Part shown: one piece after another, positions 35,149-49,875 of the stretch
Numbering within the stretch: the stretch's first letter is position 1
How the letters are laid out: the number at the start of each line of letters is the position of its first letter
Assembly (NCBI GenBank): GCA_040755755.1
Contig: JBFLZW010000012.1
Span: 24,015 to 88,014 of the forward strand
Direction: 5' to 3'
DNA length: 64,000 nucleotides
From: a bacterium
GTDB taxonomy: Bacteria > SZUA-182 > DTGQ01
Program-made: the position numbers and the translations under genes
The notes under the pieces: model-generated
Databases searched by the model: none
The model's input: only the letters and a program-made list of their open reading frames with translations
What the model was told of the DNA's origin: nothing

Positions 35149-35247
35149 CCAGCAATCTCAGAAAGCGGCTTTTATTCACAATCTCTGAAGCGGTAAAAGC
35201 TATGGAGAGGACAACCCCTATACGGTGGTTGAGCCAGCGAGGAAGTG

Positions 35248-35556
35248 ATGGAAGGTCAAAGGATAAGAATTAAATTATGTGCATATGATCATCAGATTTT
35301 AGACCAGTCAGCCGGTGAGATTGTCGAAACGGTGAAGCGGACGGGGGCAAAGGTATCAGGTCCGATACCTTTTCCAACCCGAAAAAACCGCTATACTGTG
35401 CTCAGATCCCCGCATATTGATAAAAAGTCCAGAGAGCAATTCGAGATCCGGACTCACAAACGGATTTTGGATATTCTGGAACCGACACCGCAGACCGTGG
35501 ACGCTTTAATGCGCTTGGATCTTCCCTCCGGCGTTGATGTAGAGATTAAGCTATAA
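35248..35556 (+). CDS. rpsJ: 30S ribosomal protein uS10
   Basis: 102 residues: [39 protein letters not shown] and [14 protein letters not shown] are all diagnostic. ATG 35248 has AGGA about five bases before it; an overlapping GTG at 35245 is possible. First gene of the S10 operon. The next gene is rplD only 40 bp away; the expected rplC (uL3) is missing. Confidence 0.97.
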
Positions 35557-35596
35557 CCTTGGATGTAAGATACAAGAAAAAGTTGCGTGAAAAGAG

Positions 35597-36226
35597 ATGA
35601 TAAGCTTAGATATCTATAACACTAATAACGAGAAGATCGAACAGATGGAAGTACCGGAATCAGTATTTGATGTACCGGTCAAGGAGCATCTTTTGCATGA
35701 TGTTGTCTGTTATCAGCAGGCTAAGAGAAGGAAAGGGAATGCCAGTACCAAGACCCGCGCCGATGTGTCGGGAAGCGGGACAAAGCCCTGGAGGCAAAAG
35801 GGGACTGGGAGAGCCCGGGCAGGATGCAAAAGATCGCCCTTGTGGATAGGAGGAGGCGTTGTCTTCGGACCTCATCCGAGAAGCTACGAGTTCAAGGTAA
35901 ACAAAAAGGTTTTAAACTATGCTCTTCGGTCAGCATTATCAATGAAACGGAAAGAAGGAGATTTACTGGTCCTGAAGGAGTTTGATCTTGAGCAACCGAA
36001 GACACGACTGGTAAAGGATATTCTTGACCGCCTGGAGATTCGGGAAAAAGTTTTACTCGTAATTGATGGTGAGCAGCATGCAAATTTGAGATTAGCTGCC
36101 AGGAACCTTGCACAAGTAAAGGTCATTGACACCGATGGGTTAAATGTATATGATATCCTCCTATTCAAAAAACTGATCCTGTTACGGTCAGCAGCTCAAA
36201 AGATCGAGGAGAAATTAAGCATATGA
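35597..36226 (+). CDS. rplD: 50S ribosomal protein uL4
   Basis: 209 residues; a loop that enters the exit tunnel is seen as RADVSGSGTKPWRQKGTGRA then RAGCKRSPLWIGGGVVFGPH. C-terminal LLVIDGEQHANLRLAARNL and VIDTDGLNVYDIL are typical. Upstream GAAAAGAG is a weak ribosome-binding site. It directly follows rpsJ, where rplC would normally intervene. Its stop overlaps the rplW start by four bases (ATGA). Confidence 0.96.
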   Translation: MISLDIYNTNNEKIEQMEVPESVFDVPVKEHLLHDVVCYQQAKRRKGNASTKTRADVSGSGTKPWRQKGTGRARAGCKRSPLWIGGGVVFGPHPRSYEFKVNKKVLNYALRSALSMKRKEGDLLVLKEFDLEQPKTRLVKDILDRLEIREKVLLVIDGEQHANLRLAARNLAQVKVIDTDGLNVYDILLFKKLILLRSAAQKIEEKLSI

Positions 36227-36513
36227 AGTCTGCATATGAGATCATTAAAGGGCCCATGATTACGGAGAAGAGCACTGCTCAAAAGAAACTGTTCAATAAA
36301 GTCTCCTTTGAGGTCGACAAGCTGGCCAACAAGATTGAAATCAAGCAGGCTGTTCAGGATATTTTTAACGTTAAGGTAGATAAGATATCGGTCATTCATC
36401 TCATGGGCAAAAAAAGGCGGCTTGGTGTACATCAGGGTAAGAGAGCGGACCGGAAAAAGGCAATTGTAACTCTTGCCGAGGGAGAAACCATCGAGCTTCT
36501 GGAAGGGCCTTAA
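36223..36513 (+). CDS. rplW: 50S ribosomal protein uL23
   Basis: Tunnel-exit protein, docking site for trigger factor and SRP. 96 residues with YEIIKGPMITEKST, FEVDKLANKIEIKQAV and VIHLMGKKRRLGVHQGKR. Four-base overlap with rplD. Confidence 0.96.
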   Translation: MKSAYEIIKGPMITEKSTAQKKLFNKVSFEVDKLANKIEIKQAVQDIFNVKVDKISVIHLMGKKRRLGVHQGKRADRKKAIVTLAEGETIELLEGP

Positions 36514-36550
36514 CGTCACGGGATAATCACGGCAAAGGTAAAGGATTATT

Positions 36551-37381
36551 ATGGGGATAAAGGATTATAAGCCAGTTACACCGAGTTTACGAACCCAGAC
36601 CGTCTCTACTTTTGAAGAGATTACCAAGGAGGAGCCTGAGAAATCGCTTCTGAGGAAGATGACTAAAACCGGCGGCCGGAATAATGTCGGTCGGCTGACT
36701 TCCCGGCATCGGGGTGGTGGTCACAAAAGACGGTACAGGATTATTGATTTCAAGAGGGATAAATTTTCGATTCCGGCCAAGGTTGTCAGCATCGAGTATG
36801 ATCCCAATAGAAGTGCCCGCATTGCGCTTTTACATTATGCAGATGGTGAAAAGCGTTATATTCTGGCTCCGAACTCACTGGAAGTGGGAGCAAAAGTAAT
36901 GTCAGGGCCTGAGGCTGAGATTCAGGCAGGAAATGCTCTTCCCTTGAAAAATATTCCGGTTGGAAGTGTTATTCATAATATCGAGTTAAAAAAAGGCAAG
37001 GGAGGACAACTGGTTCGCAGCGCGGGCACCAGTGCACAACTGTTGGCCAAAGAGGGCAGCTATGGACACGTACGGTTAACCTCCGGTGAAGTCCGGCTCG
37101 TTCATCTGGATTGCCTGGCAACTATCGGCCAGATAGGGAACATGGATCATGAAAATATCTCTCTCGGCAAGGCAGGTCGAACAACCTGGCTTGGCAGGAG
37201 AAGCAAGGTCCGGGGAGTGGCCATGAATCCTATTGATCATCCTATGGGTGGTGGCGAAGGTAAATCTTCCGGCGGGAGACACCCCTGTACTCCGTGGGGA
37301 AAGCCGACCAAGGGATATAAAACCAGAAGTAATAAACAAACCACCAAGTATATTATCAAAGGCAGAAAGAAGGGGAAATAG
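36551..37381 (+). CDS. rplB: 50S ribosomal protein uL2
   Basis: Primary 23S rRNA binder near the peptidyl-transferase centre. 276 residues with [39 protein letters not shown] and [18 protein letters not shown], the last including the functionally important His. Confidence 0.97.
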
Positions 37382-37390
37382 GAGGAAATC

Positions 37391-37675
37391 GTGGCACGGT
37401 CAATAAAAAAAGGGCCATATATTGATCATAATCTTTGGGAAAAGGTTGATAAGATGAATAAGGCCTTGGAAAAAAAAGTAATTAAAACCTGGGCACGGAA
37501 CTCAACTATTTTCCCTGAGATGGTAGGGCACACTATCGTGGTGCATAATGGACGAAAATTTATCCCGGTATACATTACGGAAAATATGGTTGGACATAAG
37601 TTAGGCGAATTCGCACCTACTCGGACATTTCGTGGACATGGGTCCAAGAGCGAAAAATCAACTAGGGTAAAGTAG
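37391..37675 (+). CDS. rpsS: 30S ribosomal protein uS19
   Basis: 94 residues; [39 protein letters not shown] and [15 protein letters not shown] are diagnostic. GTG start with AGGAGG (37380-37385) a few bases upstream. Confidence 0.96.
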
Positions 37676-37678
37676 ACA

Positions 37679-38017
37679 ATGAAAGTAAAAGCTGTTACCA
37701 AACATTTACCGACAACTGCGCGCAAGGCCAAGCTTGTAGTTGACCTTATCCGGGGAAAGGGTCTTGAGGAGGCGATTAACATTCTAAAGTTTACTCCGAG
37801 GGCCGCATCTCCCATGATCGAGAAGGTTCTGCGGTCGGCCATGGCTAATGCCAAACAGAACAATGAGATTAAAGACGTCGATAAGCTTTATGTGTCTGAA
37901 ATCAGCGCTCAACAGGGGCCGACTCTGAAACGATTCCAGCCAAGGGCCCGTGGACGGGCATTTCGGATTAAAAAAAGGACCAGTCATATCTCAATAGTAC
38001 TGGATGAGAGATTGTAG
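37679..38017 (+). CDS. rplV: 50S ribosomal protein uL22
   Basis: Tunnel-constriction protein with a long beta hairpin. 112 residues with RKAKLVVDLIRGKGLEEAI and FQPRARGRAFRIKKRTSHIS. Begins three bases after the rpsS stop. Confidence 0.95.
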   Translation: MKVKAVTKHLPTTARKAKLVVDLIRGKGLEEAINILKFTPRAASPMIEKVLRSAMANAKQNNEIKDVDKLYVSEISAQQGPTLKRFQPRARGRAFRIKKRTSHISIVLDERL

Positions 38018-38029
38018 GAGGAATAGGTA

Positions 38030-38704
38030 TTGGGACAAAAAGTACACCCTCTTGGATTCAGATTAGGATATACCAAAACCTGGGAATCAAAATGGTATTC
38101 AAAGAAGGAATACCGGAAAAACCTGCTTGAAGATTTGCATATTCGGGCATTTGTCAGAGAAAAACTCAAAAACGCCGGGGTTTCCCGCGTTGAAATCGAA
38201 AGAGCCTCTGACAGGGTAAAAATTAATATCCATACCGCACGACCCGGTATCATCATCGGGAAAAAGGGAACGGAAGTTGACAAATTAAAAGATGAAATTC
38301 AGGCCCTTACCCATAAGCAAATCTACATTAATATTCACGAGATACGGAAAGCGGAGATTGATGCCCAGTTAATAGCTGAAAATGTAGCTATGCAATTGGA
38401 ACGAAGAGTCGCTTTCCGAAGAGCGATGAAAAAGAGGGTTACTGCTGCCCTGCGCTTCGGGGCTGAAGGAATTCGAATCTCCTGTTCAGGAAGATTGGGA
38501 GGCGCTGAAATGGCGCGTCGTGAATGGTATCGGGAAGGCAGGGTTCCGCTTCATACCTTACGTGCTGATATCGATTATGGAACGACGATTGCACGAACTA
38601 CCTATGGGGTAATAGGAGTGAAGGTATGGGTTTTTAAAGGTGAGGTCCTGTCAAAAGAGAAACCAGAGGGAGAGCAGTTAGACAGCGTCACCTATAACGT
38701 TTGA
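38030..38704 (+). CDS. rpsC: 30S ribosomal protein uS3
   Basis: mRNA-entry protein with a KH domain. 224 residues with [37 protein letters not shown] (KH GxxG loop) and [23 protein letters not shown] start at 38030, supported by GGAGGAA (38017-38023) and by homology to the MGQKVHP start. Confidence 0.96.
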
Positions 38705-38728
38705 GAAAACAAGCTGGAGTAATAAGTC

Positions 38729-39133
38729 ATGTTAATGCCGAATAAAGTAAGGTACCGGAAAGTCCAAAGGGGCAGAATGACCGGGAAAGCCTATCGTGGT
38801 TCAAGACTGGTTTTTGGTGATTATGGTTTAAAGGCCCTGGAGCCGGGGTGGATCACCAATCGGCAGATAGAGGCGGCTCGAATCGCGATCACCCGCTATG
38901 TGAAGAGAGGTGGAAAAGTCTGGATCAATGTTTTTCCCAGCAAACCGGTCAGCAAGAAACCTGCCGAAACAAGGATGGGAAAAGGAAAGGGTGCTCCGGA
39001 ATTTTGGGTCGCGGTCATAAAGCCTGGTAAAATTCTCTACGAAATGGAAGGGGTGGCACCTGAAGTAGCCCGTGAAGCTATGAGATTAGCTGCCCATAAG
39101 CTGCCAATTAGAACACGGTTTGTAGCCAGATAG
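38729..39133 (+). CDS. rplP: 50S ribosomal protein uL16
   Basis: Organises the A-site region of the 50S. 134 residues starting [17 protein letters not shown], with [19 protein letters not shown] and [17 protein letters not shown]. Confidence 0.96.
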
Positions 39134-39144
39134 GTTTTAGGACT

Positions 39145-39360
39145 ATGAAAGCAAAAGAACTGAGAGATTATAGTGATGAAGAATTAGGACAAAAAGAGGC
39201 TGATTTACGTGAAGAGCTTTTTAAGCTCCGGTTTCAAGCCGCTTCCGGTCAATTAGAAAACTATATGAGAATCCGTCAGGTCAGGAAAGATATTTCCAGA
39301 GTGTTGACTGTATACCGGGAAAGATTGGCCAACAGGGAGAAACAGGGTGCAGGGGAATAG
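39145..39360 (+). CDS. rpmC: 50S ribosomal protein uL29
   Basis: 71-residue helical hairpin at the tunnel exit, [20 protein letters not shown] then [20 protein letters not shown]. Usual position between rplP and rpsQ. Confidence 0.95.
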
Positions 39361-39364
39361 TTCC

Positions 39365-39619
39365 ATGAAGAGCAGGGGACAAAGGAAAAAAAGAACTGGT
39401 ACCGTTGTCAGCGATAAAATGGATAAGACGGTAGTTGTAGAAGTCAAAAGAACTATCATTGATCCTACGTATAAAAAGGTTGTTCAGAAACGAAAACGGT
39501 ATAAAGCGCATGATGAGGAAAACAAGTATAAAGTCGGCGATAAGGTTGTAATTATGGAAACGAGGCCATTGAGCAAAGATAAGCGGTGGCGGGTGGTAGC
39601 ACCGTTATCCTCGAATTGA
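39365..39619 (+). CDS. rpsQ: 30S ribosomal protein uS17
   Basis: OB-fold 16S binder. 84 residues with [20 protein letters not shown] and [23 protein letters not shown] 39365 chosen; an in-frame GTG at 39347 would overlap rpmC and extend beyond the family start. Confidence 0.95.
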
Positions 39620-39647
39620 ATATCAGGGGAATTGAGGGTATAATATT

Positions 39648-40016
39648 ATGGTTCAACTTCAAACAATGCTTGATGTAGCGGACAATACGGGAGCCAAAAG
39701 GGTGATGTGTATCAAGGTGCTGGGTGGATCCCGGAAACGATATGCTACGATCGGTGATGTCATTGTCGTTACCGTGAAAGAGGCTGCACCCACCTCGGCA
39801 GTGAAAAAAGGAACGGTCAATAAGGCTGTTCTGGTACGAACAGCCAAAGAAGTACGCCGTCCCGATGGCTCGTATATAAAATTTGATCAAAATGCTGCAG
39901 TACTCATTAATAACCAGGGAGAGCCGATAGGGACACGAATTTTCGGACCGGTAGGCAGGGAATTGCGTGGCAAGAATTTTTCAAAGATCGTTTCCCTGGC
40001 TCCAGAGGTTCTATAA
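39648..40016 (+). CDS. rplN: 50S ribosomal protein uL14
   Basis: Subunit-interface protein. 122 residues with [20 protein letters not shown] and [20 protein letters not shown], both diagnostic. Length equals E. coli L14 within one residue. Confidence 0.97.
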
Positions 40017-40029
40017 GGAAGCATGACTG

Positions 40030-40383
40030 ATGAATCCGAAGATGAGCAAAGAAAAAAACAAGGGACGGTCAAATAAAATTCGAAAGGATGATCTAGTCAC
40101 CGTAATTGCCGGAAAAGCAAAAGGAAAGACAGGTCGGGTGCTTGGCGTTTTGCCGGAGAAACATCGGGTGATTGTTGAGAAACTGGTGATAGTGAAAAGG
40201 CATACTAAACCGAGTCAACAGCAGCAGCAGGGTGGGATTATTGAGAAAGAGGGCACGATTAACATCAGCAATGTCATGGTGAAATGTGGCAAGTGTAATC
40301 ATCCTACCCGTGTTGGCTTCATTCGTCTTGAGAATGGAGAAAAAGCCAGGATATGCAAAAAGTGCAAAGAGGTAATGGGCTGA
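40030..40383 (+). CDS. rplX: 50S ribosomal protein uL24
   Basis: Assembly initiator with a KOW domain: [20 protein letters not shown] and [14 protein letters not shown]. 117 residues. A run of five Gln (SQQQQQGG) lies in the middle, and the C-terminus carries a zinc-ribbon pattern, [12 protein letters not shown] followed by CKKC. Confidence 0.95.
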
Positions 40384-40420
40384 AAACTGTCTGCCTCTGG
40401 TAATGGATAGGAAAAGGGCT

Positions 40421-40972
40421 ATGGTTCGTTTAAAACAAAAGTACCAAGAAGAAATTTTACCTGCTCTCTGTCAGGAATTTGAATATAAAAATGTGCTCCA
40501 GGCTCCCAAGGTAATCAAGATTGTTATTAATATGGGTGTAGGAGAGGCGATTCAGAATGCCAAGGTTCTCGACTTTGCCTGTGAAGATCTTGCAAAAATC
40601 ACGGGGCAAAAACCCATGGTTACCCGGGCCAAGAAATCTATTGCCGGCTTCAAATTGCGGGAAGGAATGCCCATCGGCTGTCGGGTGACTTTGAGGGGGG
40701 CAAGAATGTATGAGTTTCTGGATAGACTGTTATCTGTAGCTCTGCCACGAATCAGAGACTTTAAAGGAATGCCCGACAAATCTTTTGACGGACAGGGAAA
40801 TTATAATTTTGGGCTTTCCGAGCAGGTAATATTTCCTGAGATCGATTATGATAAGGTTGATAAGGTCAGGGGTATGAATATCACGGTTGTAACGAGTGCC
40901 AAGACTGATAAAGAGGCACAGTCGTTACTCAGAAGGTTTGGGCTCCCGTTTCGGGGGGAGCGGGCAGAATAA
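40421..40972 (+). CDS. rplE: 50S ribosomal protein uL5
   Basis: 5S rRNA binder. 183 residues with [40 protein letters not shown] and [19 protein letters not shown] 40421 is preferred (AGGAAAAGGG upstream); an in-frame ATG at 40403 lacks a ribosome-binding site. Confidence 0.96.
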
Positions 40973-40999
40973 AAAAGACTAGAGAGATGAGGTAGAGTC

Positions 41000-41185
41000 T
41001 TGGCAAGAAAGTCAATGATTATCAAAGCAAATCGAAAACCGAAGTTTTCCGTACGGAAATATCACCGGTGTGGAGTATGTGGGCGGCCGCGAGCTTACAT
41101 GAGACGGTTTGGTATCTGTAGAATCTGTTTTCGTCAGCTCGCCTTGCGGGGAGAAATACCAGGCGTTATAAAGTCAAGCTGGTAA
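41000..41185 (+). CDS. rpsN: 30S ribosomal protein uS14, zinc-binding type
   Basis: 61 residues, the short zinc form, with [20 protein letters not shown] giving two CxxC pairs. TTG start at 41000 (GAGG upstream), decoding (M)[12 protein letters not shown]. Confidence 0.95.
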
Positions 41186-41202
41186 GATTGAAAGGAAGAA
41201 TC

Positions 41203-41601
41203 ATGGCCTTAACGGATCCTATTGCTGATATGCTAACAAGGATTAGAAATGCTAGCATGGCAAAATTCCAGGCAGTAGATATTCCATCCTCACGCTTGAA
41301 GCAGGAAATTATCCGTATCTTCAAAGAGGAGGGGTATATCAGAGCTTACAAGATAATCGAGGACCAAAAGCAGGGAACAATCCGGGTATACTTGAAATAT
41401 AGTGAAGATAATCGACCGGTTATCAGCAACCTTCAGAGGATCAGCAAACCCAGTCGAAGGGTATATGTAAAAAAGGATGAGATTCCCAAAGTTTTGGGTG
41501 GCATGGGGATAGCTGTCCTCTCTACCTCTCAGGGAATCATGACGGATAAAACCACCCGGCGGGCAGGATTGGGTGGCGAGGTTCTGTGCTACGTTTGGTA
41601 A
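41203..41601 (+). CDS. rpsH: 30S ribosomal protein uS8
   Basis: 16S central-domain binder and regulator of the spc operon in E. coli. 132 residues with [20 protein letters not shown] and the C-terminal [23 protein letters not shown] 41203 chosen over in-frame TTG 41188. Confidence 0.96.
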
Positions 41602-41613
41602 AAAGGATGATCC

Positions 41614-42150
41614 ATGTCGAGAATAGGAAAACAGCCAATAGTTATACCCAAAGGGATCAACGTTCAAATTGATAAAAATATTCTGTCAGTAAAAGGCCCC
41701 AAAGGACTGACCGAGCTTAACCTGCATCCCCATGTCAATGTCGAGATGGAGGGAGAGGAGATCAGAGTGAAGCCAAGATTGCAGACCAAGGCGGCACGGT
41801 CAATTTATGGCTTAACCAGAGCTTTGATATTCAACATGGTCCAGGGGGTTAAAAATGGTTTTGAAAAGAAGCTTGAGATTGTAGGTATCGGATATAAAGC
41901 GAATGTTTCGGGGAAAAATTTAGTTCTGAACCTCGGCTATTCACACCCGATTGAATATCCTATCCCGGATGGCATTGAAATACAGGTTGATAAGCAAATC
42001 AATATTGTTGTCAGAGGAATCGACAAGCAGAAGGTTGGACAGGTTTGCGCTGAAATCCGGAATTTCAAGCCGCCAGAACCATATAAGGGTAAAGGTATCC
42101 GTTATGAGGGTGAGGCGGTGAGAAGAAAGGTCGGAAAAACCGGAGCATAG
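41614..42150 (+). CDS. rplF: 50S ribosomal protein uL6
   Basis: 178 residues, two L6 repeats; [20 protein letters not shown] and the C-terminal [20 protein letters not shown] are diagnostic. Confidence 0.96.
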
Positions 42151-42173
42151 GATCAATTGAAGGAGAAAAATCC

Positions 42174-42539
42174 GTGAAAGGAAATGAAAGTCAGATATCG
42201 AGATCAATCCGCCATGCGAGAGTGCGGAAAAAGATTCAGGGGAGATCAGACCGGCCCCGCCTTGTCGTTTTTAAATCTTCCAAGCATACGTATGCTCAAG
42301 TGATCGATGACGTGCAGGGGAATACGTTAGCTTCAATATCGACTCTGTCTTCGAAGTTTCGGGAAAGACAACGGTATGGGGGAAATATCTCTGCTGCCAG
42401 GGTAATTGGTGAATTAATTGCCAAGGAATCTCTTCATAAGGGAATCAAGAAGGTAGTTTTCGATCGTGGCGGGTATCAATACCACGGAAGAGTCAAGGCC
42501 TTGGCAGAAAGTGCCAGAGAAGGGGGATTGGAGTTCTAG
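42174..42539 (+). CDS. rplR: 50S ribosomal protein uL18
   Basis: 5S rRNA binder. 121 residues with [20 protein letters not shown] and [23 protein letters not shown] start at 42174 with AAGGAG about eight bases upstream. Confidence 0.95.
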
Positions 42540-42557
42540 CATGATGGAGGGAAGCGT

Positions 42558-43055
42558 TTGGCCAAGGTAAATCCAGATCAATTTGAATTAGTGGATAAGG
42601 TAGTCCATATTAATCGGGTTGCCAAAGTTGTCAAAGGGGGACGAAGGTTCGGGTTCAGTGCTCTGGTAGTGGTTGGAAATGCTGATGGCTACGTTGGAAT
42701 CGGATTGGGTAAGGCCAATGAGGTCCCGGAAGCCATCCGCAAAGGAGTAGAGAGGGCAAAGAAGAACCTGGTGAAAATTCCGGTTACCAAAGGAACCATC
42801 CCGTATATGGTCATGGGACACTATGGCGCAAGCAAGGTTATGTTGAAACCGGCTTCTGAAGGGACCGGGGTTATTGCCGGAGGAACGGTGAGAGCGGTCA
42901 TGGAGGCGGTCGGTGTAAAAAATATCCTTACCAAGTCGATTGGATCCAGTAATCCCCACAATGTTATCAAGGCAACCATGGCCGGATTGATGAGCCTTCG
43001 AAATCCGGAAGAAATCATCAGAAATCGTGGTTTAATACGAGAAGAGGCAGGGTGA
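42558..43055 (+). CDS. rpsE: 30S ribosomal protein uS5
   Basis: Fidelity protein with a dsRNA-binding-like N-domain: [38 protein letters not shown]. 165 residues. TTG start at 42558, GGAGG upstream. Stop overlaps or nearly touches rpmD. Confidence 0.95.
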
Positions 43056-43057
43056 AA

Positions 43058-43246
43058 ATGGGAAGTCAGATCAAAATCACGCTGATAAAAAGCGGGATCA
43101 GCAGATCCTGGAAGCATCGGGAAATATTAAAGGGGCTGGGTCTGACCAAGTTAAACAAGACAGTTTACCGGCCCAATAACCCTGCAATCATGGGAATGGT
43201 AAAGAAGGTCGAATACCTGCTAGACTATCAGATTACAGAAGGATAG
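43058..43246 (+). CDS. rpmD: 50S ribosomal protein uL30
   Basis: 62 residues: [43 protein letters not shown] 43058, or a GTG at 43052 that would overlap rpsE by four bases (GTGA). Confidence 0.93.
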
Positions 43247-43250
43247 ATGG

Positions 43251-43697
43251 ATGAATTTAAGTCAATTAAAACCCGCGGAAGGTTCAAAAAAATATCGGAA
43301 ACGAGTGGGTAGAGGGTCCGGGTCAGGGCACGGCAAGACGAGCTGCCGGGGGCACAAGGGCCAGAACGCACGAGCTGGCGGTGGTGTACGCCGGGGATTT
43401 GAGGGTGGTCAAATGCCTTTGCAGCGAAGGCTGCCGAAGCGGGGATTTCACAACCTCTTCGGAAAGGAATATGCTCTGGTTAATGTATCAGCTCTCGAAG
43501 GCTTTGAGCAGGGAACAACCATCACGCCGGCAGAGTTAATACAGAAAGGCCTGGTTAAAAAGATCCTGAATGGAGTCAAGATACTGGGAGATGGCGAGTT
43601 ACACAAGTCATTAAAAGTCAAAGCCCATAAATTTTCAAAAACCGCTATTGAAAAGATCCGCACCGCAGGTGGAGAGGTCGAGGTGATTAGCCCTTGA
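43251..43697 (+). CDS. rplO: 50S ribosomal protein uL15
   Basis: 148 residues; Gly/Arg-rich N-terminal extension [20 protein letters not shown], then [20 protein letters not shown]. Stop codon overlaps the secY TTG (TTGA). Confidence 0.96.
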
Positions 43698-45007
43698 TTG
43701 AAAGTTTCCAAAATATCTTTAAAGTACCTGAATTAAAAAAGAGAATTCTATTTACCTTTGGTCTTTTGGCTGTCTTTAGAATCGGGGCTCACATTCCAAC
43801 TCCAGGAATTGATGGCGCAGCTTTGAGCGCTTTTTTTTCTCATGCGAAGGGAACTCTTCTGGGATTTTTTGACATGTTTTCTGGAGGAGCGTTATCCAAA
43901 CTGACGGTTTTTGCCCTTGGAATTATGCCCTACATCGATGCTGCTATTATTCTGGAGCTGTTGACAGTAGTCATTCCCCATCTGGAGCGGCTTTCAAAAG
44001 AAGGTGAACAGGGAAGAAAGAAAATCACCCAGTACACCCGGTATGGAACGATTCTGATTGCAGTCATACAATCTCTGGGGATAGGCTTTGGTCTGGAATC
44101 CATGAGGAGTCCGACCGGGGCACCTATTGTTCCATTTCCCGGCTGGCCATTCCGACTGCTGACCGTAATTACCCTTACGGCAGGAACTGTGTTCCTGATG
44201 TGGCTCGGTGAGCAGATAACCGAACGGGGAATCGGAAACGGGATTTCTCTCCTTATCTTCGCTGGTATTGTCGTTCGAGGGCCAGCGGCGGTAATTAATA
44301 CTGTGCGGCTTTTGCGAACGGGAGAAATGTCGTTTATCCTGATGGCCCTTATCGCTGTATTTATGGTGGCGGTATGCGCCTTTATTGTTTTTGTTGAGAC
44401 TGGAGAACGAAAGATTCCGGTGCAATATGCCAAACGCATGGTTGGAAGAAGGATGTATGGAGGGCAGAGTACCTACATCCCCTTGCGGGTAAATACTGCC
44501 GGAGTTATTCCAATCATTTTCGCTGCATCGATTATCATGTTTCCGGCAACCATAGCCAGGTTTATTAATCATCCATGGATGATTCATATTGCCGATGCTC
44601 TGGCCCCGGGTGCGCCACTGAATACGATTCTCTATATTGTTTTAATTGTGTTTTTCTGTTATTTTTACACAGCTATTATTTTCAATCCGGTTGACGTTGC
44701 TGATAATATGAAGAAGTATGGAGGTTTTATTCCGGGAATTCGGCCTGGTAAAAATACTGCTGAATATATCGATAAAATCCTGTCGAGAATCACCCTGGTC
44801 GGAGCAATCTACCTGTCTCTTATTTCTATTTTACCTACGTATTTGATTAAATTCTTTAATGTTCCTTTTTATTTTGGCGGTATAGCACTCATAATCATCA
44901 TTGAGGTTGGCCTGGATACGGTTCGCCAGATAGAATCTCATTTAATCATGAGAAACTATGAAGGCTTTATTAAGAAATCGAAGGTCAGTAGGCAAAGGAT
45001 CGGATAA
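43694..45007 (+). CDS. secY: Preprotein translocase subunit SecY
   Basis: Ten-span pore of the Sec channel, inner membrane. 437 residues with [49 protein letters not shown] (plug region and TM2) and [21 protein letters not shown] start at 43694 shares four bases with the rplO stop. Partner SecE is encoded at 19696-19881. Confidence 0.96.
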
Positions 45008-45032
45008 ATCGGATAAAAAGGATAGGCAAGGG

Positions 45033-45683
45033 ATGAATCTCATACTTTTAGGGGCACCGGGAGTAGGAAAAGGAACACAGGCTAAGTTACTGATGAAAAG
45101 ATACCAGATTCCTCAGATATCGACAGGCGATATTCTGCGGGAAGCGGTACGTGAGCATACTCCGCTCGGCCTCAGGGCACAGGAGTTCATGAACAAGGGA
45201 CTTTTGGTACCCGATGAAATTGTTATTGGTATCATCGAGGATAGACTGAAAGGTCAGGACTGTAGTCATGGCTTTATTCTCGATGGATTTCCCAGAACCA
45301 TACCGCAGGCTGAAAGTCTCGGTGAAGTCATAAATAAACTGAGCATGAAACTTGATCATGTCATCAATTTTGAGCTGGATGAAGAGACTCTGATCAAAAG
45401 GCTGGCTGGAAGACAGACTTGTCAAGGTTGCGGAAATATGTATAATATATATTTTAATCCTCCGCGAAAGGAGGGGATCTGCGACCAATGCGGTGAAAAA
45501 CTCTTTCAACGGAAAGATGATAACCCCACAACAATACAGGAAAGGTTATCTGTTTATCGGGCTCAAACAATGCCGCTCATTGGATACTATCAGGCTCAGA
45601 GCAAACTGGTTACGATAACGTTAAGTAATAGCGAAGGACCGGATCAGATTTTCGATCGCCTTCGTATGATGTTGGAAAGTTAG
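45033..45683 (+). CDS. adk: Adenylate kinase, zinc-lid type
   Basis: ATP + AMP to 2 ADP. MNLILLGAPGVGKGTQAKLL is the P-loop; ISTGDILREAV binds AMP; GFILDGFPRTIPQAE is the family signature. The lid carries CQGC and CDQC, a Cys4 zinc site. 216 residues. ATG 45033 with AAGGG upstream; the open frame extends into secY but homologs start here. Confidence 0.96.
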   Translation: MNLILLGAPGVGKGTQAKLLMKRYQIPQISTGDILREAVREHTPLGLRAQEFMNKGLLVPDEIVIGIIEDRLKGQDCSHGFILDGFPRTIPQAESLGEVINKLSMKLDHVINFELDEETLIKRLAGRQTCQGCGNMYNIYFNPPRKEGICDQCGEKLFQRKDDNPTTIQERLSVYRAQTMPLIGYYQAQSKLVTITLSNSEGPDQIFDRLRMMLES

Positions 45684-45688
45684 ATATT

Positions 45689-46456
45689 GTGGTTATCCTG
45701 AAATCTCCTGATGAAATAGAGAGGATGAGAATTTCCGGACATATTGTGGCCGAAGTGCTTGAATATCTGAAAGAGTTGGTACAACCGGGTATTACCACTC
45801 TGGAGCTTGATCGGGAGGCGGAAAGGGAAATATACCGCAGAGGCGGAGAACCAACCTTTAAGGGATACAAACGATTTCCTCATGATTCTCCTTTTCCGGG
45901 GTGTATTTGCGTCTCTATCAATGAAGAAGTTATCCACGGGATACCTTCACAGAGAAAATTACTCCGAGGAGACATAATCAGTATTGACATTGGGGTCAGG
46001 GCAGAAGGATTTTGCTCTGATTCAGCCATTACGGTTGGGGTAGAGAGCATCAGTAAGGAAGCTGAGAAATTGCTCAGTACTACCGAAGAATCTTTGTACC
46101 GGGGAATTGGAAAGGCTTATCCGGGAAACAGGCTTCAGGATATCTCGTATGCAGTTCAGCAGCTTGTTGAAGAGCGGGGATATTCTGTAGTGCGTGATTT
46201 TGTCGGACATGGAATCGGACGATCTCCCCACGAAGATCCCCAGGTTCCCAATTTCGGAAAGCCTGGGCGGGGAAGACGATTAGAAGCAGGAATGGTTCTG
46301 GCCATCGAGCCGATGGTTGTCATGGGCAGTTATAATGTTGATGTGCTGGAAAATGGGTGGACAGCAGTGGCTGTCGATCATAGTCTGTCGGCTCATTTCG
46401 AGCATACGGTAGCCATCACTGGCAGCGGGCCGGAAATCCTAAGCAGGATTGAATGA
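45689..46456 (+). CDS. map: Methionine aminopeptidase, type I
   Basis: Removes N-terminal Met from nascent proteins. Metal ligands are visible: Asp in SIDIGV, Asp in CSDSAITVG, His in GHGIGRSPHE, Glu in AIEPMV and Glu in FEHTVAI. 255 residues. GTG start five bases after the adk stop, as in many spc operons. Confidence 0.95.
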   Translation: MVILKSPDEIERMRISGHIVAEVLEYLKELVQPGITTLELDREAEREIYRRGGEPTFKGYKRFPHDSPFPGCICVSINEEVIHGIPSQRKLLRGDIISIDIGVRAEGFCSDSAITVGVESISKEAEKLLSTTEESLYRGIGKAYPGNRLQDISYAVQQLVEERGYSVVRDFVGHGIGRSPHEDPQVPNFGKPGRGRRLEAGMVLAIEPMVVMGSYNVDVLENGWTAVAVDHSLSAHFEHTVAITGSGPEILSRIE

Positions 46457-46470
46457 GGAGATAATAACTT

Positions 46471-46689
46471 ATGTCAAAGGAAGGGGCGATCGAGGTAGAG
46501 GGGGTAGTCGTAGAGCCCCTCCCCAACGCTATGTTCCGGGTTGAGCTGGAAAATGGCCACAGAGTTCTCGCCCATATTTCTGGAAAAATGAGAAAAAATT
46601 TTATAAGGATCCTTCGTGGTGACAGGGTGCTGGTAGAGCTTTCTTCTTATGACTTAACCAAGGGTAGAATCATTTATCGATTCAAGTAA
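46471..46689 (+). CDS. infA: Translation initiation factor IF-1
   Basis: 72-residue S1/OB-fold protein: [40 protein letters not shown] and [13 protein letters not shown]. Located between map and rpmJ as expected. Confidence 0.96.
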
Positions 46690-46703
46690 AGGTCAATAAA
46701 TCT

Positions 46704-46817
46704 ATGAAGGTGAGAAGTTCCGTAAAGGCAATTTGTAAAAAATGCAAGATTATTCGGCGAAGGGGTATCATCCGGGTTATTTGTGAAAATCCTCGGCATA
46801 AGCAGAGACAGGGCTAA
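46704..46817 (+). CDS. rpmJ: 50S ribosomal protein bL36
   Basis: 37-residue [23 protein letters not shown] followed by [17 protein letters not shown]. The CxxC, later Cys and His form the zinc site of the standard L36. Between infA and rpsM, its normal place. Confidence 0.95.
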
Positions 46818-46916
46818 AAGGCCGGTATTTTTGCCGAAACGGGATGATCACATGGTAAGTGATATGGGTAGAGAATTTCATGATAAAATTTTAATTTTAT
46901 TCCAGGGAGGAGTGTC

Positions 46917-47297
46917 TTGGCACGTATTGCGGGTGTAGACTTACCAAAAAATAAAAGAGCCGAGATCGGACTCACATACATCTATGGAATCGGAAGGTCA
47001 CGATCCCAACTCATTCTTGAAAAGGCACAGGTATCGAAGGATACAAAGATTGGAAAGCTTACTGAGGAGGAAATCACCCGGATACGGGATCAGATCGCCA
47101 ATTTCAAGGTTGAAGGAGATTTGAGAAGAGAGATTTCCATGAATATCAAAAGACTCATGGACATCGGATCTTATCGCGGCATGCGTCATCGTCGATCAAT
47201 GCCGGTAAGAGGGCAGCGAACCCATACCAATGCGAGAACGAGAAAGGGTCCGAAGCGAGCCACAGTCGGTGGAAAGAAAAAAGCAACCAAGAAATAA
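46917..47297 (+). CDS. rpsM: 30S ribosomal protein uS13
   Basis: 126 residues: [34 protein letters not shown], and a basic tail [23 protein letters not shown] start at 46917 with GGGAGG upstream. The preceding 100-bp gap contains an A/T palindrome (46883-46900) of unknown significance. Begins the alpha operon. Confidence 0.95.
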
Positions 47298-47354
47298 ATC
47301 ATAAGCTGGAAATCGAGCCGATGGTTATTATTCCGGTAAAGGAGGTAGCATAAC

Positions 47355-47744
47355 ATGGCCCAAGTTAAGAAGAGAGGCCAAAAAAAAGAAAAAAAGAATA
47401 TCCCGGTTGGCGTAGCTCATATTCAGTCAACCTTTAACAATACCGTTATCACTATTACTACCGTTGAGGGGGACGTATTGTCTTGGTCCAGCGCAGGAAG
47501 CCTGGGGTTCAAGGGTTCTCGGAAAAGTACACCATTCGCTGCGCAAATGGCTGCTGAAGCTTGTGCCAAGAAAGCTATGGAGCAGGGCATGCGACAATTG
47601 GAAGTCAATGTCAAAGGTCCTGGTGCTGGAAGAGAGGCAGCTATTAGAGCCTTGCAGGCAGTTGGCCTTGAAATAAGCTCGATAAAAGATGTTACCCCGA
47701 TTCCGCATAATGGGTGCAGACCTCCCAAAAGGCGGAGAGTGTAG
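47355..47744 (+). CDS. rpsK: 30S ribosomal protein uS11
   Basis: 129 residues with [40 protein letters not shown] and [16 protein letters not shown], all diagnostic. AAAGGAGG precedes the ATG. Confidence 0.96.
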
Positions 47745-47761
47745 AAAGGAGAAATTGGAAA

Positions 47762-48388
47762 TTGGCTAGATATCGAGGCCCTGTTTGTCGTTTATGCCGT
47801 CGTGAAGGCATGAAACTGTTTCTCAAGGGAGACAGGTGCTATACTGATAAATGTGCGATTGAAAGAAGAAATTATCCACCTGGGCAGCATGGACAGGCAA
47901 GACCCAAAAGCTCCGGGTATGGATTACAATTAAGAGAAAAACAGAAAGCTAAAAGAATATATAGCATACTTGAAAGTCAATTCAGAAGTTATTTTCATAA
48001 GGCAGAAAGGAAGCCGGGTGTCACCGGCAAGTACCTTCTAACCTTATTAGAAACGCGGTTGGATAATGTTATCTATCGGCTTGGATTTGCTTCCTCCAGA
48101 AATGGAGCCCGGCAATTGATCACTCATGGTCATTTTACGGTCAATGGCCGAAAAGTGAATATTACCTCCTATCAACTAAAGCAGGGAGACACCATTGAGC
48201 TCATCGAAAAGAGCAGGAAAATCGAATGGATTAAAGAATCGATGGACTCGGCGGCACATCGCGGCATCCCTCAATGGCTGGAGGTCAACCCTGAAAAATT
48301 TATTGGAATAGTAAAAAGTCTTCCAAGCCGAGATGATATTACACTGCCAATTCAGGAGCAGTTAATCGTAGAATTATATTCAAAATAA
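47762..48388 (+). CDS. rpsD: 30S ribosomal protein uS4, zinc-binding type
   Basis: 208 residues: [20 protein letters not shown] with further Cys in [20 protein letters not shown] (zinc form), and an S4 domain [23 protein letters not shown] 47762 with AAAGGAG upstream; the frame extends back into rpsK, but homologs start at ARYRGP. Confidence 0.95.
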
Positions 48389-48409
48389 AGCTACGGAGGG
48401 CAAGACTTA

Positions 48410-49450
48410 ATGCTGCAGTTTAAAGGTTTACAAAAACCAAAAAGGCTAGAGTGTGATTTAAGCACACTAACAAACACTTATGGTGAATTTTCTGCAGAAC
48501 CCTTCGAGCGGGGATTTGGCGTAACCATTGGGAACTCTTTACGAAGAGTACTATTGTCCAGCATTCAGGGTTCTGCGGTGACAGCGGTCAGAATCGAAGG
48601 AGCCCTGCATGAATTTTCTTCGTTATCGGGGGTTATCGAAGATGTCACCGAAATTATTTTAAACATCAAAGAGCTTCGAATAAAGTGTCATGTCGATCGT
48701 CCAAAAACGATTACTATTCGAAAAATCGGCCCCCACGAAGTGACTGCTGCTGACATCGACCATGATGCAGATGTTGAAATCCTGAATCCTGAGCTTCACA
48801 TCGCTGATCTCGATAAAGATGGCGTTTTGAACATGGAACTATTTGTTAAACAGGGAATCGGTTATTTCCCGGCAGAGAGAAATAAAGAGGAAAATCAGCC
48901 GGTAGGAGTTATTCCCATAGATGCCATCTTTTCACCGGTAAGGAAGGTTAACTTTCAGGTCGTGAATACTCGTTTAGGACAGTCTACTGAATACGAGAAA
49001 CTGAAGCTGCAAGTCTGGACTGACGGAAGTATCGCTCCTGCCGATGCTGTCGCTCATGCCGCAAAAATATTGAAGGATCATTACAGTATCTTTGTTAACT
49101 TCGAAGATAAAGAGGAAGAAATTTCCAAACCCGAGGAAGAAGTCAAAGCCAAGGAAGAGCCCAAGTTCAATGAAAATCTCCTGAAGAGTGTAGATGAGCT
49201 GGAACTTTCAGTAAGGGCTTATAATTGTCTCAAAAATGCTAATATTCGGACAATTGGGGAATTGGTGCAGCGGACTGAAAGTGAAATGCTGAAAACCAAG
49301 AATTTTGGAAGGAAATCACTTAACTCCATCAAGGGAATTCTCGCGGACATGGGATTGCACCTGGGCATGAAACTGGATAATTTCCCGCCTGTCGAGAGCA
49401 AAGAGGAAAAAGTTGATAAAAGTGAAGAGACTGAAGTCGAATCATCCTGA
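48410..49450 (+). CDS. rpoA: RNA polymerase alpha subunit
   Basis: 346 residues. The N-terminal assembly domain contains [20 protein letters not shown] and the CTD has [20 protein letters not shown] then [20 protein letters not shown], the UP-element/activator surface. An acidic linker lies between and a short acidic tail follows. Confidence 0.97.
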
Positions 49451-49479
49451 TAACAGGAAATAGCAGAGGATCTGAAGAT

Positions 49480-49875
49480 ATGCGGCATAAGCTTGATAAA
49501 AGGAAACTGAATCGTGATTCCAGTGCCCGTAAGGCAATGCTCAAGAATCTCGTTACCTCGCTCCTTGATCACAATCGGATCGTGACTACGGAAGCCCGGG
49601 CCAAGGAAACGCGAAGAATTGCAGAAAAAATTATTACTACCGCTAAAAGCGATACCTTGCATGCCCGCAGGATGATCCTGCGGTTTGTTACCAAAAAGGA
49701 AGTCGTGAAGAAACTGTTTAAAGAGATTGCTCCCTATTACCGGGAAAAAGCTGGTGGATATGTCCGTCTGATTAAAATCGGGCCAAGAAAGGGCGATGGC
49801 GCGTTTATGGCTATGGTCGATCTCCTTGGCCTGGGTGGAAAAGAACAGGCGGAAAAGAAGGAAACCGAGGCCTAA
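49480..49875 (+). CDS. rplQ: 50S ribosomal protein bL17
   Basis: 131 residues with [39 protein letters not shown] and [20 protein letters not shown]. Ends the alpha operon; a strong terminator follows 52 bp later. Confidence 0.96.

Follow-up and report, generated by a model that had tools for sequence, protein, structure and literature searches.

Probable displacement of ribosomal protein uL3 by a stand-alone gene outside the S10 operon in a bacterial order

In the window, i.e., the whole stretch of 64,000 nucleotides of bacterial DNA analysed here, the S10 operon lacks rplC, the gene of the core ribosomal protein uL3, and a single stand-alone rplC is found elsewhere in the genome. We explain this by orthologous displacement, in which a foreign stand-alone copy took over from the native one, and give this reading a probability of roughly 0.75. 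To our knowledge, uL3 is a universal ribosomal protein and its gene lies nearly always within the main ribosomal operon. The gap is real and old, many other lineages share a stand-alone uL3 arrangement with the window's order, and the copy of this order is probably foreign.

Table 1. Features discussed in the text (positions refer to the window unless a contig or locus is named).
Feature	Position	Strand	Basis and remarks
rpsJ (uS10)	35245..35556	+	ORF; PF00338; start GTG at 35245 or ATG at 35248; intact
rpsJ-rplD junction, without rplC	35557..35596	+	Sequence; 40 bp; same junction type in G001-G004
rplD (uL4)	35597..36226	+	ORF; PF00573; intact
rplW to rplQ (remaining S10-spc-alpha run)	36223..49875	+	ORFs, assigned from sequence reading; canonical order
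rpmJ	46705-46818	+	Below the size of the ORF list; found by reading the sequence
Displaced rplC (uL3)	C67:19200-19859 = L061:9701-10360		Outside the window; 219 aa

The preliminary description of the window had stated that rplC is missing between two intact genes, that the short interval holds no remnant of it and that the other genes of the S10-spc-alpha run, here including rpmJ, are all present and in order; each of these statements holds (Table 1). The sequence of the rpsJ-rplD junction contains no trace of rplC, Pfam recognizes Ribosomal_S10 in rpsJ and Ribosomal_L4 in rplD, and the str genes 5′ of the S10 run are also present and ordered.

The same description had proposed a genome-wide search for uL3. 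A PF00297 search of the window's genome (5.26 Mb in 88 contigs, 97.6% complete) gave a single match, on contig C67. Complete loss of uL3 is ruled out by this gene. Its product scores 275.5 bits against the NCBIfam model L3_bact (TIGR03625; cut-off 142.9; profile positions 1-202 of 202) and 67.2 against the Pfam family (PF00297; cut-off 22), and it aligns over almost its full length with uL3 of solved ribosomes. Tetranucleotide usage ties C67 to the window (r 0.90-0.96), other genomes reaching at most 0.87. A glycogen synthase gene lies upstream of the displaced rplC, and about 60 bp downstream begins the gene of an ADP-forming acyl-CoA synthetase of 699 aa, with CoA-binding, succinyl-CoA-ligase-like and ATP-grasp domains, followed by a gene whose product has AAA_26 and DRTGG domains. 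The contig also carries a tmRNA gene (L061:420-786), about 9 kb upstream of rplC.

A promoter-like sequence of the form TTGACA-N17-(C/A)ATAAT, read by eye, stands upstream of rplC in four genomes of the order (G000, G001, G003 and G004), with TGC preceding the -10 box in all four; the copy in G000 matches 11 of the 12 consensus positions of a sigma-70-like promoter. Judging from this sequence, a sigma-70-like promoter would drive the displaced rplC, and its product presumably goes into the 50S subunit, since the displaced gene is the only copy. No known Rfam leader reached the gathering threshold at the new locus. The automatic alignment of the four upstream regions, made in search of a leader conserved beyond the promoter and the ribosome-binding site, was poor, with misaligned promoters. 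As for the neighbourhood, rplC adjoins the ADP-forming acyl-CoA synthetase gene in the window's order (L061:9701-13629), and at an Omnitrophota locus (L088:2223-6633) it lies a few genes after apparent phosphate acetyltransferase and acetate kinase genes, as read by eye; such a link of rplC with acetate and ATP metabolism may be chance.

A comparison of the junction in related genomes, also suggested at the outset, covered eight relatives in the class: G001 from the same genus, G002 and G003 from the same family, G004 from the same order and G005-G008 from outside the order. All five genomes of the order (the window's and G001-G004) have rpsJ beside rplD without rplC, and G005-G008, from other orders of the class, retain rpsJ-rplC-rplD, so that the native gene is gone from its ancestral site in the window and its closer relatives. 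Because G001-G004 were assembled independently, the junction is not a local assembly error. The order rplC, acyl-CoA synthetase gene, DRTGG protein gene is kept in four genomes (G000, G001, G003 and G004), and the single uL3 gene of the window's genome, the presumed replacement copy, has a conserved location. In G002, the genome search found neither rplC nor the acyl-CoA synthetase gene; since the neighbour is missing too, the whole locus probably falls in an assembly gap. An empty site could not be recognized in the class relatives, where the synthetase gene was not found. As the junction, the new locus and the promoter-like sequence are conserved across the order, the change is old and shared, with its own likely expression signal.

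The arrangement is not confined to this class. The survey ran parallel searches for the L3 and L4 families over the same 243 genomes (at least 90% complete), compared the positions of the matches and then read the rpsJ-rplD junctions. At least 20 of the 243 genomes, from approximately 16 families, have rplC away from rplD together with rpsJ beside rplD; among them are G000, G001, G003, G004, G036, G041, G048, G051, G088, G093, G096, G103, G104, G111, G151, G176, G184, G227, G228 and G235. The same gap is present in G039 and G056 of a first survey. In G235, a complete single-contig genome of another lineage, rplC lies 1.7 Mb from rplD, and in the phylum of G227 and G103 all four genomes examined have rplC away from the S10-operon genes. 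Further stand-alone rplC genes were read, at the rplC loci only, in Omnitrophota and others (L088, L089, L090 and L105). The gene neighbours differ between lineages, and rplC thus recurs outside the operon in distant bacteria and varied contexts, much as the S4 gene does. None of the surveyed genomes was seen to have both an operonic and a stand-alone uL3. A wider spacing occurs in G211 (L192:1115-1922), where rplC is within the S10 operon but about 800 bp before rplD, as against a few tens of bases elsewhere. Carriage of rplC by mobile elements (phage, plasmid or virus) found no support in the respective searches: no relative was confirmed in viral contigs, and the plasmid and phage matches were all below 60% identity and probably represent rplC of hosts, from records that were misfiled or are of chromosome size.

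Stand-alone uL3s are also set apart by sequence. In the alignment, nearly all of them have a loop resembling HGTHEYxRHGGSIG, whereas most operonic uL3s, including those of the class relatives, have one resembling HG-SxxHRxPGSIG. Scored as GxH[EDY] (with G allowed for H), a pattern picked after viewing the alignment, the variant loop occurs in 25 of the 26 stand-alone uL3s and in 4 of the 61 operonic ones (Fisher p 1.3e-16, uncorrected for relatedness, the counts being non-independent observations). Mapped on the operon tree, the gene switches location 11 times and the loop switches type 9 times; for an independent-pairs test relating the two, supported pairs were too few. G088 has a stand-alone rplC, yet both its loop and its tree position are operon-type, and for this reason we conclude that relocation alone does not create the variant loop. 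The variant segment is the extended uL3 loop reaching towards the peptidyl-transferase centre, and substitutions in it around residue 149 (E. coli numbering) change the sensitivity to pleuromutilins (PMC7345174); we claim no effect on resistance. A few uL3s combine the features differently: a genome that is Myxococcota-like but titled Deltaproteobacteria has the complete stand-alone loop type in a uL3 encoded at the normal site between rpsJ and rplD (L095:489-1139), and the uL3s of G040 and G013 partly resemble it. Such genes may be donors or may have been replaced in situ.

Trees and quartets of uL3 contrast strongly with those of the proteins formerly encoded beside it. In trees of five operon proteins (S10, L4, L23, L2 and S19), the order joins its class relatives (support 92/84; 84 in a second tree). 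In the uL3 tree of 75 rows, the order instead falls together with three operonic uL3s and the stand-alone ones of Omnitrophota, G056, G039 and G048 (93/97), apart from a clade of the class relatives (100/97). In the tree of 87 rows, 25 of the 26 stand-alone uL3s share one group of 29 rows (SH-aLRT 81), and for the remaining stand-alone rows the label requires 7 changes, versus 19.6 in shuffles. Ranked by identity to the window's uL3 among 83 sequences from outside the order, the class relatives stand at 57, 66, 77 and 78; the stand-alone uL3s of G103 and G227 come closest, at 60-61%. The contrast is clearest in four-cluster likelihood mapping, whose quartets are non-independent observations. 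For uL3, the order pairs with stand-alone sequences in 84-94% of quartets over four comparisons, against 4-7% for a pairing with the class relatives; with the operon proteins, the order joins the class relatives in 67-89% of quartets in three of four comparisons, the fourth, with G056/G039, being a tie.

It is reasonable to ask whether convergent change of the loop alone could have drawn these sequences together. This explanation is weakened by the clustering that stays when the loop columns are removed: it becomes weaker, with G004 separating from its order-mates, but the other stand-alone rows still require 10 changes versus 19.9 when shuffled, and the order pairs with stand-alone uL3s in 64-88% of quartets. 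A horizontal origin of the displaced uL3, i.e., as a xenolog, is favoured by these sequence comparisons rather than proven. The protein is short (approximately 218 columns), deep nodes of the uL3 trees are weak, and a single uL3 clade uniting the order and its class relatives is not rejected by an AU test (p 0.204 for 75 rows, 0.068 for 80).

From these patterns we infer the direction of transfer and the order of gain and loss. An ancestor of the order would have acquired a foreign rplC, placed ectopically beside the ADP-forming acyl-CoA synthetase gene. The native rplC would then have been excised cleanly from the S10 operon, leaving rpsJ-rplD, and the single stand-alone gene, whose location is observed, would now supply uL3 from its sigma-70-like promoter. 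As donor we propose a member of a stand-alone uL3 lineage that has the variant loop close to the peptidyl-transferase centre, occurs in many bacterial phyla and seems to have displaced operonic uL3 repeatedly. We lean somewhat towards the wider proposal that this distinct lineage spread horizontally over many phyla, displacing the operonic gene again and again.

Alternatively, the native rplC may have moved within the chromosome and evolved fast outside the operon, with nothing foreign involved. G088 is an example of an operon-type uL3 that simply moved, and the AU tests leave the common clade that such a history predicts unrejected. We nevertheless hold relocation to be unlikely: uL3 quartets prefer stand-alone partners over the class relatives, and those of the operon proteins do not; the class relatives' uL3s are among the least similar to the window's; and the order has the loop type of other phyla's stand-alone uL3s, which its class relatives are without. 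Quite improbable, in our judgement, is the converse history, in which both the stand-alone state and the uL3 type go back to the ancestor of a wider group, the class relatives having later regained a foreign operon-type rplC in situ. It draws on a weak group of 15 rows in the operon tree (SH-aLRT 80), made up of the order, the class relatives, G227/G103, G056/G039, G040 and G013, within which stand-alone rplC is common. However, it demands a precise single-gene insertion between rpsJ and rplD, where the flanking proteins of the class relatives are native, and displacement through gain elsewhere followed by deletion is simpler. The draft state of the genome (88 contigs, estimated contamination 2.96%) might suggest an artefact, with rplC dropped from the junction or C67 a contaminant, but the chance of this is negligible given a junction common to five genomes, a new locus common to four, the window-like composition of C67 and the same kind of split in the complete genome G235. 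Of the three fates that the preliminary description had considered for uL3, a location elsewhere is shown by the gene on C67, replacement is favoured by phylogeny, and loss through an assembly or strain deletion is refuted by the shared junction and by the split in G235.

uL3 is used in concatenated species trees under the assumption of vertical descent. If a foreign uL3 has indeed taken the place of the native one in many phyla, such trees hold a hidden conflict. Distant ribosomes would then also prove able to exchange a protein that extends to the peptidyl-transferase centre, an exchange that is unlikely under the complexity hypothesis. The variant loop offers a concrete target for structural and functional tests.

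Text searches, mostly of non-subscription literature, found no paper that interprets an rplC lying outside the S10 operon as displaced. The proposed event is like the orthologous displacement of universal single-copy genes, where a foreign ortholog replaces the native copy (PMC3151239); that analysis of 40 universal genes in 191 species recorded zero displacements for L3 (COG0087). A mechanism in which a cluster gene is deleted once a duplicate has been gained elsewhere or horizontally was proposed before (PMC8046335); that work differs in dealing with Gammaproteobacteria and Bacilli, and rplC is absent from its main text. The loop is the same extended segment approaching the peptidyl-transferase centre as in the pleuromutilin work (PMC7345174), but point mutations of laboratory strains were studied there and the variant here is natural. 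Many genomes have their sole S4 gene outside the alpha operon, and this gene has been called quite mobile (PMC3087516). Like the C- form (IV) of S4, uL3 is a universal ribosomal protein whose sole gene lies outside an otherwise undisturbed operon, in distant bacteria, in variable contexts conserved only at the order or family level, and with a distinct sequence form (PMC3087516). Unlike the S4 forms, which differ in zinc-binding cysteines (PMC3087516), uL3 belongs to the large subunit and is marked by a loop close to the peptidyl-transferase centre.
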